From Celeribacter ethanolicus (GTDB taxonomy: Bacteria; Pseudomonadota; Alphaproteobacteria; Rhodobacterales; Rhodobacteraceae): a DNA stretch of 38,511 nt. The notes beneath the pieces are model-generated. The model was not told where the DNA came from. It saw only the letters and a list, made by a program, of their open reading frames with translations, and ran no database searches. Both the position numbers and the translations under genes were made by a program. Shown here one piece after another: positions 8,486 to 38,510 of this stretch; positions within the stretch are counted from its first letter, which is position 1, and each line of letters starts with the position of its first letter. The stretch covers positions 1 through 38,511 of the forward strand of contig NZ_LRUC01000009.1 in NCBI RefSeq assembly GCF_001550095.1. Direction: 5' to 3'.

Positions 8486-11047
8486 TTAGCTCCGTGGCTT
8501 GGTGTTTTCCGGGTCGTAGAGCGGCGCGTAGCCGACACCTGCAACCTCGACCGGGTAGGTCTCGTCGAGATAGGTGACGTTGAGCTTGCGGCCTACTTCA
8601 CAATACTCTTTCGGCAGGTAAGCCAGCGCGATGTTCTTGCCCACGCTCGGACCGTAAGCCACCGAAGAGGTGAAGGAACGGCGGCCAAGCTCGTCGATCA
8701 GCACCTCACCCGTTTCCGGGTCCATCACCGGCATGGTGGTGTTCGGGTAGCGTTTCACACCGTTCTTGTCGGTATGCTCCAGCATCACGAGGGTACAGAG
8801 CATCGCCGGCTGGTGTTCACGGGCACGGTATTCGAGATGTTTCTCTTTCCCGCAGAAGTCCGCTTCTTTCACCTTCGGACGCGACAGGTCAGCCTCGTAG
8901 AGGTTGTACATTGTGTTCAGATCGGCGTTTTGCAGGCGCAGGGATTTTTCCAGACGACGGGAGTTGGCGTAGGTCTCGACACCCACGGCCATCACGCCGG
9001 TCTCACGTAGCGCGTCCCAAACGGCGAGACCGTCCTCGTAGCGCATGTGAAGTTCCCAACCTTGCTCACCCACATAGGAAATGCGGAAGGCAGAGACTTT
9101 CTTGCCTGCGATCTCGATCGTCTTGATCGCCGCGAAGGGGAAGTTCTCTTTCTCCAGCATATCCGGATCGGCCACGACCTTTTTCAGGTTTTCGCGGGCG
9201 TTCGGACCCCAGATGCCGATGGTGGTGAAGTCTTCGGTCACATCCACGATGGTGACGTCGAGACCACGGTCCTCGGCCATGCGCTTCATGTACATGAGAT
9301 CGCGCGGACCGGCGTCGGCACCGTTCACCAGACGGCAGCGGTCTTCCATGCGGAACACCGTGAAGTCGGCGCGGACCATGCCTTCGTCATCGAGCATGTG
9401 GGTGTAGATCCCCTTGCCGATGTTGTTGTCGCCACCGATTTTCGCCGCACAGAGATATTCCATCAGCTCGACGTGATCGGGACCCGAGATGTCGGTCATG
9501 TGGAAGTGCGACAGGTTGATGATGCCGCAATCGGCGGACATCTCAAGCTGTTCAGCGTTGGACACGCGCCAGAAGTGACGGTTGTCCCATTCGGCTTCGC
9601 GCACCGGAACCTGATCGGCGTATTTCTCAAGGAGATGCTCGTTGGCGGCATAGCCGTGGGCCCGTTCCCAGCCACCGAGTTCCATGAAGTAGCCACCCAG
9701 CTCGACTTCGCGCTCATAGAAGGGCGAGCGACGCACGCCACGGCCTTTGGAGAAGGGCTCGCGCGGGTGGATCGGCGGGTTGTAGATCTTCTTCGCGGTT
9801 TCCCAGCAACGGTCGGCGATGAACTCTTCGGTTAGCGCGAAATCGTTGAAGCGGGCGTAGTCGATGCCGTGGTGGTCGACATCGGTGCGGCCCTTGGTCA
9901 TCCAGTCGGCGATGAGCTTGCCCATGCCGGGGCCGTCCTTGACCCAGATCGCGACCGCATACCACAACCCGCGCAGCTTGCGGCTTTCGCCCATGGACGG
10001 GCCACCGTCGGTGGTGGTTTGCAAGAGACCGTTGAACGAGTGACCTTCGTTGAAGCCCAGCTCCGCGAGGATCGGGGTCAGTTCCATGGCCTTCTCAAGC
10101 GGCTCGATCACGTCTTCCAGCACGAGGTCGCGCATTGACGGCCCGAGGCGGGCTTCGCCTTTCTCGAGAATGTCGCGCGGGTGCACCATGCGCGGCTCTT
10201 CTTCGTAGTAGTAGCCCCATTCGATCTGACCGCCCTCGGTGGTCGCAGGATCGCCGGTGTCGCGCAGATAGGCGGAGTTGCCCTGGTCGCGCAGCAGCGG
10301 ACGACCGATTTCGAGGCCGGTGCCAGCGAATTCATCATAGGGCCCGAAGAAGGTCAGCGGGTGGTCGACCGGCATGACCGGAAGGTCTTCGCCTGCCATT
10401 TCGGCGATCAGACGGCCCCAGAGACCGGCACAGACCACAACGTAATCGGCCATGATGGTGCCGCGGTGGGTTTTCACACCGGTGACACGACCGTTCTCGG
10501 ACAGAAGCTCCAGCGCCGGGGTGTTGGCGAAGACTTTGAGCTTGCCGGTTTTCTCGGCCTCATCCACCAGTTTGCCAGCAACGGTTTGCGACCGCGGCAC
10601 AACGAGACCGGCGTCCGGGTCCCACATGGCGGCCTGGATCTGATCTTCTTCGAGCAGCGGGAATTTCTCTTTGGCTTCGGCCGGTGTGATCATTTTCACA
10701 TTGGCACCGAAGGCGCGGGCGGAGTCGCAGCGGCGCTTCAGTTCGGTCAGACGGTCATCGTCGCCGACGCGGCAGACTTCAAGACCGCCGATGCGCGAAT
10801 AGTGACCCATCTTCTCGTAGAAATCCATCGAGTACAGGGTACTCCAGGTGGACAACAGATCGTGGCTCGTGGCGTAGCAGAAGTCCGACGCGTGGCCGGT
10901 GGAGCCGATGTCGGTGGGGACGGCGGATTTGTCGATGCCGACAATATCGTCCCATCCGTTTTCGATGAGGTGGTGCGCCACGGAGGCGCCGACGATACCG
11001 CCGAGACCGACGATGACGACTTTGGCCCTGCTGGGGAACGAAGACAT
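8486..11047 (-). CDS. dmgdh: Dimethylglycine dehydrogenase-like flavoprotein (FAD oxidoreductase + GcvT domain)
   Basis: This 853-residue enzyme should oxidise N,N-dimethylglycine to sarcosine, passing the methyl group to tetrahydrofolate. The N-terminal half is a DAO-type FAD domain with GLGGIVG at residues 14-20 and GSTGHASDF around 48-56. His52 aligns with the covalent FAD histidine of mammalian DMGDH, although the usual Trp before it is Gly here. The C-terminal half, from about 440, is an aminomethyltransferase (GcvT) fold, with MLDDEGMVRADFTV and ISYVGEQGWELHM. The start at ATG 11047 follows AAGGA at nine bases; a TTG 9 bases upstream is less likely. It is last in the etfB-etfA-purU-folD operon, which supplies an electron acceptor and folate enzymes. 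Sarcosine dehydrogenase is the alternative, but soxBDAG already covers sarcosine. Confidence 0.85.
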   Translation of the reverse strand: MSSFPSRAKVVIVGLGGIVGASVAHHLIENGWDDIVGIDKSAVPTDIGSTGHASDFCYATSHDLLSTWSTLYSMDFYEKMGHYSRIGGLEVCRVGDDDRLTELKRRCDSARAFGANVKMITPAEAKEKFPLLEEDQIQAAMWDPDAGLVVPRSQTVAGKLVDEAEKTGKLKVFANTPALELLSENGRVTGVKTHRGTIMADYVVVCAGLWGRLIAEMAGEDLPVMPVDHPLTFFGPYDEFAGTGLEIGRPLLRDQGNSAYLRDTGDPATTEGGQIEWGYYYEEEPRMVHPRDILEKGEARLGPSMRDLVLEDVIEPLEKAMELTPILAELGFNEGHSFNGLLQTTTDGGPSMGESRKLRGLWYAVAIWVKDGPGMGKLIADWMTKGRTDVDHHGIDYARFNDFALTEEFIADRCWETAKKIYNPPIHPREPFSKGRGVRRSPFYEREVELGGYFMELGGWERAHGYAANEHLLEKYADQVPVREAEWDNRHFWRVSNAEQLEMSADCGIINLSHFHMTDISGPDHVELMEYLCAAKIGGDNNIGKGIYTHMLDDEGMVRADFTVFRMEDRCRLVNGADAGPRDLMYMKRMAEDRGLDVTIVDVTEDFTTIGIWGPNARENLKKVVADPDMLEKENFPFAAIKTIEIAGKKVSAFRISYVGEQGWELHMRYEDGLAVWDALRETGVMAVGVETYANSRRLEKSLRLQNADLNTMYNLYEADLSRPKVKEADFCGKEKHLEYRAREHQPAMLCTLVMLEHTDKNGVKRYPNTTMPVMDPETGEVLIDELGRRSFTSSVAYGPSVGKNIALAYLPKEYCEVGRKLNVTYLDETYPVEVAGVGYAPLYDPENTKPRS

Positions 11048-11146
11048 ATCTCTCAATCCTTCTTTTCGAGGTGTTTGTCTGTGGAGGGCGCGGGGAGGGC
11101 GCGCCGGGAAGTCCGGGGAAAATGGTCGGCCCCGAAACCGACAACA

Positions 11147-11177
11147 GCCGCGCGGAGGAAAGTGTCCCCCGCGCGGC
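11147..11177 (-). other. Intercistronic stem-loop between folD and the dehydrogenase gene
   Basis: GCCGCGCGG (11147-11155) and CCGCGCGGC (11169-11177) form a nine-pair GC stem around a 13-base loop in the 166-base folD-dehydrogenase gap. No T tract follows on the minus strand. It may protect or process the operon mRNA. Confidence 0.5.
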
Positions 11178-37155: not shown

Positions 37156-37379
37156 GTGGGCTCCTTGGTTTGAGGGCGGCCAAACCGGGCCATGTTGCGT
37201 GGTGCTTGCGTGGTGCGGCGGACTCTGGGGGTCATTTGTCCGAATTCTGCCGAATGTCCAGATTGTGCTGCGTGCCGCGATGGGCGACAAGAGTGCAGAG
37301 CGATATTTTGGCAGAGCGGATCGCAGGGTTCGGCGTTTCTCTGCCAATATTGCCGTTTTTGAACGAAGAGGACGCGTTT
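37156..37379 (+). promoter_or_regulatory. Divergent promoter region of the GlxA regulator and adhI
   Basis: This 224-base gap holds a long inverted repeat close to the adhI start (37308-37347). ATTTGTCCGAATTCTGCCGAATGTCC-like tandem elements (TGTCCGAAT, TGCCGAATG) lie at about 37235-37258. No gene is supported. Confidence 0.45.
37308..37347. promoter_or_regulatory. Inverted repeat, candidate operator of adhI
   Basis: TTGGCAGAG (37308-37316) and CTCTGCCAA (37339-37347) are perfect nine-base inverted repeats, 31 bp centre to centre, close to three helical turns. The right arm ends 32 bases before the adhI ATG. It could be an operator for a dimeric or tetrameric regulator or a 5'-leader hairpin. 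Confidence 0.5.
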
Positions 37380-38510
37380 ATGAGAACGAAAGCCGCGGTT
37401 GCGCTTGAGGCCGGGAAACCGCTCGAGATAATGGAAGTGAACCTCGAAGGCCCGAAGAAGGGCGAGGTTCTGATCGAGATCAAGGCCACGGGTCTGTGTC
37501 ACACGGACGAGTTCACCCGGTCGGGCGCCGATCCGGAGGGCATCTTCCCCTGCATCCTCGGCCACGAGGGCGCGGGCGTCGTGCTGGAGGTTGGCGAAGG
37601 CGTTACCACGCTGAAACCGGGCGATCACGTCATTCCGCTTTACACGCCCGAGTGCCGCGAATGCCCGTCCTGCCTCTCCGGCAAGACCAACCTCTGCACC
37701 GCGATCCGCAATACTCAGGGTCAGGGGCTGATGCCCGATGGCACCACGCGGTTTTCGATGCTCGACGGCACGCCGGTCTACCACTACATGGGCTGCTCGA
37801 CCTTCGCGAACCACACCGTCATGCCGGAGATTGCATTGGCCAAGGTGCGTGACGACGCGCCCTTCGACAAGATCTGCTACATCGGCTGCGGCGTGACCAC
37901 CGGCATCGGTGCTGTGATCAACACCGCGGGCGTCGAGATCGGCGCGACCGCCGCCGTCTTCGGTCTCGGCGGCATCGGTCTGAACGTGATCCAGGGCCTG
38001 CGCATGGCCGGGGCCGACATGATCATCGGTGTCGACCTGAACGATGACAAAGAGGAGATGGCCCGCAAATTCGGCCTGACCCATTTCATCAATCCGACGA
38101 AAATCGAAGGCACCGTGGTCGAGGAAATCGTCAACCTGACCAAACGTGGCGCGGATCAGATCGGCGGCGTGGACTATTCCTTCGATGCGACCGGCAACGT
38201 CAAGGTGATGCGCGACGCGCTGGAATGTTCGCACCGGGGCTGGGGCGTGTCCGTGGTGATCGGCGTGGCGCCGTCGGGGGCGGAGATTTCCACGCGTCCG
38301 TTCCAGTTGGTCACGGGCCGCGTCTGGAAAGGCACGGCGTTCGGCGGCGCGAAAGGCCGCACCGATGTGCCGAAATTCGTCGACTGGTACATGGACGGCA
38401 AGATCGAGATCGACCCGATGATCACGCACAAGCTGAAGCTTGAAGAGATCAACCACGGGTTCGATCTCATGCATGAGGGCAAGTCGATCCGCGCTGTCGT
38501 CGAGTTTTAA
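37380..38510 (+). CDS. adhI: S-(hydroxymethyl)glutathione dehydrogenase / class III alcohol dehydrogenase
   Basis: This 376-residue zinc enzyme oxidises S-hydroxymethylglutathione, formed spontaneously from formaldehyde and glutathione, to S-formylglutathione with NAD. Catalytic zinc ligands are Cys40 (GLCHTDEFT) and His62 (LGHEGAG), with a third in [13 protein letters not shown]. Structural zinc cysteines occur in [17 protein letters not shown]. The NAD fold motif is [15 protein letters not shown] start at ATG 37380 ([12 protein letters not shown]), the usual family N-terminus; the frame runs upstream without conserved sequence. The stop TAA ends one base before the window edge, so the gene is complete. 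S-formylglutathione hydrolase (fghA) is often next but would lie outside. Also called frmA or flhA. Confidence 0.96.

Follow-up and report, generated by a model that had tools for sequence, protein, structure and literature searches.

A predicted glycine betaine catabolic block shared among Celeribacter genomes, with a dimethylglycine oxidase-like enzyme and its own electron transfer flavoprotein genes

Described betaine gene clusters and the Celeribacter block

Genes for the breakdown of glycine betaine have been described together in Colwellia and Vibrio, and we compare these gatherings with a block found in Celeribacter ethanolicus, on a stretch of 38,511 nucleotides (contig C52, positions 1-38511, of a 4.2-Mb genome in 52 contigs) that we call the window. 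In Colwellia psychrerythraea 34H, the accessible part of the report places gbcAB, a gbdR homologue, glyA-soxBDAG-purU, betT and a formaldehyde dehydrogenase gene together at CPS_4009-4039, and puts part of the set, lying in a 37-kb genomic island (CPS_4030-4060), down to horizontal transfer (PMC3691474). Unlike the window, this locus uses DgcAB for dimethylglycine, includes formate dehydrogenase, has choline genes nearby, and leaves folD and a serine dehydratase gene described as truncated at other places (same part of PMC3691474). For Vibrio fluvialis and V. natriegens, the accessible text lists gbcA, gbcB, soxBDAG, glyA1, purU, sdaB and a glxA gene, with an electron transfer flavoprotein (ETF) pair (fixAB) beside the dimethylglycine enzyme. 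The genes form one contiguous cluster in V. fluvialis (39 strains) and two clusters 28 kb apart in V. natriegens, whose growth on betaine requires gbcA and dgcA (PMC12093977). Here too the dimethylglycine enzyme is DgcAB and not, as in the window, a flavoprotein resembling dimethylglycine oxidase (DMGO); folD has 0 occurrences in that portion of the text (PMC12093977). Ruegeria pomeroyi, in the accessible parts of two reports, resembles the window in demethylating dimethylglycine and sarcosine, in oxidizing folate-bound one-carbon (C1) units and in using SdaA, and differs in its first step, MtgBCD, and in its folate exit, Fhs (PMC12478193, PMC4744692), which is required there (PMC4744692).

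Two plasmids of about 21 kb of relevant genes each, Salipiger abyssi pPABY1 and Ponticoccus alexandrii p-SCP3, hold a GbcAB-type pair, a protein like dimethylglycine dehydrogenase (DMGDH), FolD, EtfAB, a GlxA regulator, BCCT, SoxBDAG, GlyA, SdaA and PurU, as in the window. They differ from it in that FdhA, the Pot transporter and FolB are not listed, that a LysR gene lies between DMGDH and gbcA, and that GbcA is of another type, judged from homologous Salipiger loci. Celeribacter indicus pP73A shares with the window dmgdh-folD-purU-etfA-etfB, a GlxA regulator and fdhA, as well as gbcAB-BCCT-soxBDAG-glyA-sdaA (GbcA 79%), but in two separated modules and with no Pot transporter listed. We take the PA5375-PA5421 region of Pseudomonas aeruginosa to be a similar gathering. 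Since the Salipiger and Ponticoccus plasmids and the published Colwellia and Vibrio clusters hold nearly the same steps, completeness is not new, and the "unusually complete" block of the original prediction is a variant of known gene gatherings that overturns nothing known.

The window very probably carries a discrete glycine betaine catabolic block, shared by several Celeribacter, that has passed from replicon to replicon, either whole or module by module. Each of its steps is predicted from protein family and gene order. Between 8486 and 35544, five genes on the minus strand (dmgdh to etfB) are followed by a regulator gene, four transporter genes and fdhA on the plus strand, then by ten genes from sdaA to gbcA, all on the minus strand. 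Scores are given below as bits/model cut-off.

8484..35577: conserved block, as bounded by blastn homology to three Celeribacter islands
8486..11047, minus: dmgdh, dimethylglycine dehydrogenase/oxidase-like flavoprotein (Pfam; start at an ATG three codons inside a TTG frame)
11214..12101, minus: folD (NF010785, 440.4/396)
12164..13039, minus: purU, formyl-tetrahydrofolate deformylase (TIGR00655, 326.7/285.95)
13060..13992, minus: etfA (closest solved structure 1efp_A, 377.2 bits; passes no NCBIfam cut-off)
14011..14760, minus: etfB (closest solved structure 1efp_B, 344.5 bits; passes no NCBIfam cut-off)
15164..16246, plus: GlxA/AraC regulator, GbdR-like (GbdR model, 200.8/480, below; start inferred from translation)
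16464..17561, plus: ABC transporter ATPase, PotA-type (TIGR01187, 382.6/355.6; Pfam)
17641..18738, plus: ABC transporter substrate-binding protein, PotD-type (SBP_bac_8; closest solved structure 8jv1, 206.9 bits)
18900..20147, plus: ABC transporter permease, PotB-type (BPD_transp_1)
20160..21098, plus: ABC transporter permease, PotC-type (BPD_transp_1)
21357..22544, plus: fdhA, glutathione-independent formaldehyde dehydrogenase (TIGR02819, 717.4/636.95; start inferred)
22615..24021, minus: sdaA, L-serine ammonia-lyase (TIGR00720, 594/345.1; start inferred)
24130..25398, minus: glyA (NF000586, 647.4/335)
25417..25971, minus: soxG (TIGR01375, 123.4/143.95, below; assigned by its place in the sox run)
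25985..28978, minus: soxA (TIGR01372, 1547.7/1164)
28975..29277, minus: soxD (TIGR01374, 122.5/116.5)
29291..30544, minus: soxB (TIGR01373, 699.3/529.45)
30906..31270 (start approximate), minus: folB, dihydroneopterin aldolase (PF02152, 124.5/31.8)
31373..33013, minus: BCCT transporter (TIGR00842, 469.5/407.55)
33164..34258, minus: gbcB-like reductase (NF058606, 358.9/500, below)
34255..35544, minus: gbcA-like Rieske oxygenase (NF058607, 424.6/670, below)
36154..37155, minus: second GlxA/AraC regulator, outside the conserved block (DJ-1_PfpI + HTH_18)
37383..38510 (start approximate), plus: adhC, class III (glutathione) formaldehyde dehydrogenase, outside the block (TIGR02818, 603/543.95)

The block was compared with the islands of four named Celeribacter genomes (HF31, B30, PS-C1 and C. 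neptunius). The complete gbcA-to-dmgdh order, folB and the ABC transporter included, is kept in the three long-form islands (HF31, B30 and PS-C1), with protein identities of 59-99% to the window, and in each of them DNA homology stops at 8484 on one side and at 35577-35579 on the other. Because it stops there, the block does not include the second GlxA regulator or AdhC; neither gene is matched in the flanks fetched for these islands (4-18 kb per side). Hence, the two formaldehyde dehydrogenases and two GlxA/AraC regulators that had been predicted are present, with one of each beyond the conserved part, and an island first drawn from 8486 to 38510 shrinks to about 8484-35577. The C. neptunius island is a short form with dmgdh, purU, the regulator, sdaA, soxGADB, gbcB and gbcA, in which etf, folD, glyA, fdhA, folB, BCCT and the ABC transporter were all undetected.

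On its left side the block is preceded by a LysR gene, an ABC cluster of the sugar/glycerol-phosphate type, a gene resembling those for phosphodiesterases and one for a HAD hydrolase; to the right of gbcA, the second GlxA/AraC gene and adhC reach the contig end. These flanks show no homology to the relatives' flanks except for a 278-base ABC-type ATPase stretch. G+C content is 0.61 inside the block against 0.61 and 0.60 outside, so composition gives no sign of foreign DNA. Nothing resembling a mobile-element end was found among repeats at either edge, each edge being searched separately and not against the other, and the window gave 0 Rfam matches and no tRNA. Promoter-like sites in 8000-27900 numbered 2 against 3.9 expected, and terminator-like sites 22 against 18.6. 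At 22562-22593, between the converging fdhA and sdaA, is a probable two-way terminator, a strong hairpin that has T-runs on each strand. The dyad GGCA-N11-CATC, present in 4 of 6 upstream regions, was dropped as a candidate operator: 1 shuffled set in 20 did as well, the window holds 6 copies against 2.47 expected with as many in 4 of 100 shuffles, and only one of the four window sites (etfB/gbdR, in PS-C1) was seen at a matching upstream place in the relatives.

Predicted route, uptake and control

In the proposed route, the BCCT carrier would import betaine; it passes its family model and falls below the betaine-specific NF047988 (505.4/650). GbcA and GbcB would then convert glycine betaine, with NADH and O2, into dimethylglycine and formaldehyde, and the DMGDH-like enzyme would turn dimethylglycine into sarcosine and methylene-tetrahydrofolate (methylene-THF). 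SoxBDAG is predicted to yield glycine, a second methylene-THF and H2O2 from sarcosine; SoxB, SoxD and SoxA exceed their cut-offs, and SoxG is below but in its place in the run. GlyA would join glycine and one methylene-THF into serine, from which SdaA would release pyruvate and ammonium. The other methylene-THF would exit as formate via FolD and PurU, while FdhA would oxidize formaldehyde to formate and give back the NADH spent by GbcB. Formate from the block could be oxidized by a formate dehydrogenase encoded elsewhere; one is found on contig C13 (929.5/666.25).

All the pathway genes named in the original prediction (BCCT, GbcAB, DMGDH-like, ETF, SoxBDAG, GlyA, SdaA, FolD and PurU) are present as open frames, and its path from betaine to pyruvate, with methyl groups going to formaldehyde, methylene-THF and formate, remains the best fit to a gene set kept together in Celeribacter relatives. 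As it also stated, formate dehydrogenase, ETF:quinone oxidoreductase (ETF-QO) and catalase are absent from the named window genes; the first two occur elsewhere in the genome, and catalase was not searched for. Fhs was not found in the genome (4 of 14 controls match), which makes PurU the probable exit from folate. The genome holds three copies of FolD, so that of the island is not the sole one.

The statement that almost no unrelated gene interrupts the island does not survive: folB had been overlooked, and a complete four-gene Pot-type ABC transporter (16464-21098, 4.6 kb) sits in the middle. The folB gene, which possibly boosts folate supply, is present in all three long-form relatives at 59-83% identity, against about 90% or more for most neighbours. 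As for the transporter, only the ATPase passes a curated polyamine model; the permeases and the binding protein fail. Homologues of the binding protein reach 93-98% identity in three Celeribacter and 60% in Actibacterium ureilyticum, in which the gene is likewise near DMGDH. The closest solved protein, 8jv1, was deposited as spermidine/putrescine-binding, and a literature search for PDB 8jv1-8jv4 gave chance word matches only. A predicted fold (mean pLDDT 36.6 from five sequences) was too poor and was left unused. A homologue on Paracoccus versutus pTAV3 (58.7%) lies beside genes resembling L-carnitine dehydrogenase (247.6/414, below) and beta-keto acid cleavage enzyme; the carnitine-dehydrogenase-like gene was seen in this one of three plasmid neighbourhoods of such homologues and not in the other two. 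Carnitine can be converted to betaine. The Pot-type transporter may thus be an additional importer whose ligand is carnitine or some other quaternary amine, a sensible suggestion but a weak one. The GbdR-like regulator probably senses betaine or dimethylglycine.

The genome contains a second C1 region (C13:50000-89999) with SoxA-like (44%) and SoxB-like (52%) proteins, purU, folD, a 795-residue GCV_T protein and the formate dehydrogenase. We take it to be a methylamine/N-methylglutamate region.

Substrate of the block and electron acceptor of the dimethylglycine enzyme

GbcA is a Rieske-type protein (PF00848, 110.2 bits, over the cut-off), and the adjoining reductase gene has NF058606 as its best model. 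Several observations weigh against glycine betaine as the principal substrate. GbcA and GbcB stay below their NCBIfam equivalog cut-offs, and the regulator, for which GbdR is the best model of all, misses that cut-off too. The commoner Rhodobacterales type of GbcA scores higher (487.9-518.6 bits, n = 3) than the window type (410.5-424.6 bits, n = 3), with all six failing. Among solved structures, GbcA is closest to 3n0q and then to Stc2 (3vca), which we take to be a stachydrine demethylase and, going by name, the nearest characterized solved relative. Together with the extra transporter and the carnitine-dehydrogenase-like gene beside its pTAV3 homologue, these points would suit a block made for another methylated betaine (stachydrine, carnitine or similar), with glycine betaine as an intermediate or side substrate and the GbcAB-like pair as a different demethylase. 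We hold this to be quite improbable: DMGDH and SoxBDAG act on products of glycine betaine, the other type of GbcA (41-45% identical to that of the window) stands beside DMGDH in Salipiger, Paracoccus and others, and none of the named block genes is one for opening stachydrine or carnitine. In addition, the MtgB-type MTTB betaine methyltransferase that could replace the first step was not found in the genome (1 of 14 controls match). Other alphaproteobacterial proteins tested likewise also fell below the NCBIfam cut-offs (GbcA-like, 5 of 5; GbcB-like, 3 of 3).

The DMGDH-like protein has the domain order DAO + FAO_M + GCV_T + GCV_T_C (Pfam) and passes no NCBIfam cut-off. Alignment to 1pj5 shows that the columns H48, H225, Y259 and D552 of Arthrobacter DMGO are kept; 3gsi differs at the D552 column. 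H48 presumably has a covalent-FAD role, and H225 and Y259 are reportedly active-site residues in DMGO. In humans, electrons pass from DMGDH to ETF and then to ETF-QO (accessible part of PMC5082570). The route proposed for the window resembles this mammalian chain in folate-dependent dimethylglycine demethylation with electrons delivered to ETF/ETF-QO; it departs from the chain in that the enzyme of the window has its closer sequence match in the Arthrobacter oxidase (same source for the mammalian chain).

This last point favours a different reading, in which the enzyme, like that of Arthrobacter, is an oxidase producing H2O2, and the ETF close by works for other dehydrogenases. Three findings count for it and against coupling to ETF: the score to the oxidase 1pj5 (359 bits) exceeds that to the dehydrogenase 4pab (250.7 bits), etfA (at least 65% identity) occurs near DMGDH in just 22 of 80 loci, many of which are cut by contig ends, and no ETF was seen in the C. 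neptunius island. Gene order argues the other way. The same-strand run etfB-etfA-purU-folD-dmgdh is found in the window, HF31, B30, PS-C1 and C. indicus, and ETF adjoins DMGDH in Thalassospira and Salipiger loci. In the window the two were originally described as adjacent; they do belong to one run, with purU and folD between them. Moreover, the island ETF comes in addition to the genome's other ETF, to which it is 61-69% identical. Among solved structures EtfAB is nearest to Paracoccus ETF (1efp), and the 14-residue recognition-loop region of EtfB is identical to 1efp and one residue off human 1efv; we assume that this loop has a role in docking. A peroxide-making oxidase is a serious contender, if a doubtful one, and coupling of the DMGDH-like enzyme to ETF is likely. 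Its electrons would most likely go to the EtfAB of the same gene run and then to the single ETF-QO encoded elsewhere, which a genome search located on contig C49.

The other etfBA pair is found at four places (contigs C5, C18, C25 and C30), 100% identical over 1671 bases in different surroundings. They could be genuine copies that have stayed the same or an artefact of assembly; the copy on C5, for one, is close to a contig end.

Taken jointly, we propose a DMGO-like enzyme with its own co-inherited ETF, feeding the respiratory chain via ETF-QO instead of making H2O2, with a FolD and PurU folate sink in the same run. The whole would be a sharply bounded cassette of about 27 kb with interchangeable parts, one slot taking either of two GbcAB types, and with a Pot importer for carnitine or another quaternary amine. 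We advance this combination tentatively, as somewhat more apt to fail in one of its parts than to hold throughout. In the open-licence literature, among the matches listed, no paper was recognized in which a DMGO-like enzyme shares a single gene run with ETF, FolD and PurU.

Distribution and probable movement of the block

The family sample comprised 295 genomes of the GTDB family, the present one included, searched with E-value thresholds of 1e-250 or lower for DMGDH, 1e-300 for SoxA and 1e-30 for GbcA relatives. DMGDH was found in 11 genomes, SoxA in 26 and a GbcA relative in 86, many of the last being Rieske matches of partial length. Judged by contig position, 8 of the 11 have GbcA no more than 40 kb from DMGDH, 8 have SoxA so placed and 7 have both; one further DMGDH genome has SoxA on a different contig. 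Since few candidates were scored per genome, these counts are lower bounds. Neighbours within 10 kb were also counted for named DMGDH loci, the best 80 of 588, with full flanks in 54 of the 80. GbdR-like genes are found at 37 of these loci, gbcA-like at 27, etfA at 22, soxA at 17, purU at 17, folD at 11 and potD-like at 4; gbcA, gbcB, soxA and the regulator occur all together at 14. About half of the 80 are rhizobial, most without any of these neighbours. The arrangement recurs wherever this DMGDH occurs in marine Alphaproteobacteria, while the enzyme itself is patchy. In rhizobia, Brucella-group bacteria and Roseibium, DMGDH of 77-79% identity has almost no other block gene within 10 kb, and the enzyme there would thus work in another context.

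Could the block have been inherited vertically, with only its flanks rearranged? A DMGDH tree (81 of 81 rows, quick method, SH-aLRT support only) that groups the window with Celeribacter (97, 4 rows) would fit this, as would the 8.6 kb that HF31 and PS-C1 have in common on the gbcA side of the island; both these Celeribacter sp. strains have a DMGDH sharing 94% identity with that of the window. In the same tree, Celeribacter sits within a set of 18 rows (95), where the typed rows outside Celeribacter have GbcA of the second type (8 rows of type B, 5 untyped, and 5 Celeribacter/window rows of type A, four of these A labels being set by hand). A genome of the same GTDB genus has a DMGDH 79% identical to that of the window and a GbcA of the second type at 44%, against 81-83% and about 75%, respectively, in Thalassospira. 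For the window GbcA, identity is 72-77% with the Thalassospira and Pseudovibrio proteins and 41-51% with almost every other one from the family sample, the exception being a single genome at 75%. These identities and the patchy occurrence of DMGDH in the family, along with plasmid locations for the block or its parts, make purely vertical descent unlikely. By sequence, the window GbcAB is of the Thalassospira/Pseudovibrio type and is paired with a Rhodobacterales DMGDH. Because the tree neighbours and the same-genus genome carry the second GbcA type, we infer that the gbcAB module was exchanged between block types.

Among the plasmids, Thalassospira marina pCSC3H3 holds a gathering of about 18 kb in which FolD, SdaA and FdhA are not listed. 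On C. indicus pP73A the two block modules are about 18 kb apart, just after repABC. The interval between them encodes a TRAP transporter as well as the two subunits of a proton-translocating transhydrogenase (17315-20335 of the fetched stretch).

Overall, betaine is a major marine nitrogen and carbon compound, and marker genes are the usual basis for deciding which bacteria consume it. GbcA markers built around known enzymes would miss whole alphaproteobacterial types, as all six GbcA-like proteins fell under the NCBIfam cut-off. The betaine-use trait appears to travel on plasmids and in bounded blocks, and the Celeribacter block offers a small, convenient system in which to ask if a bacterial enzyme of the DMGO kind works with ETF.

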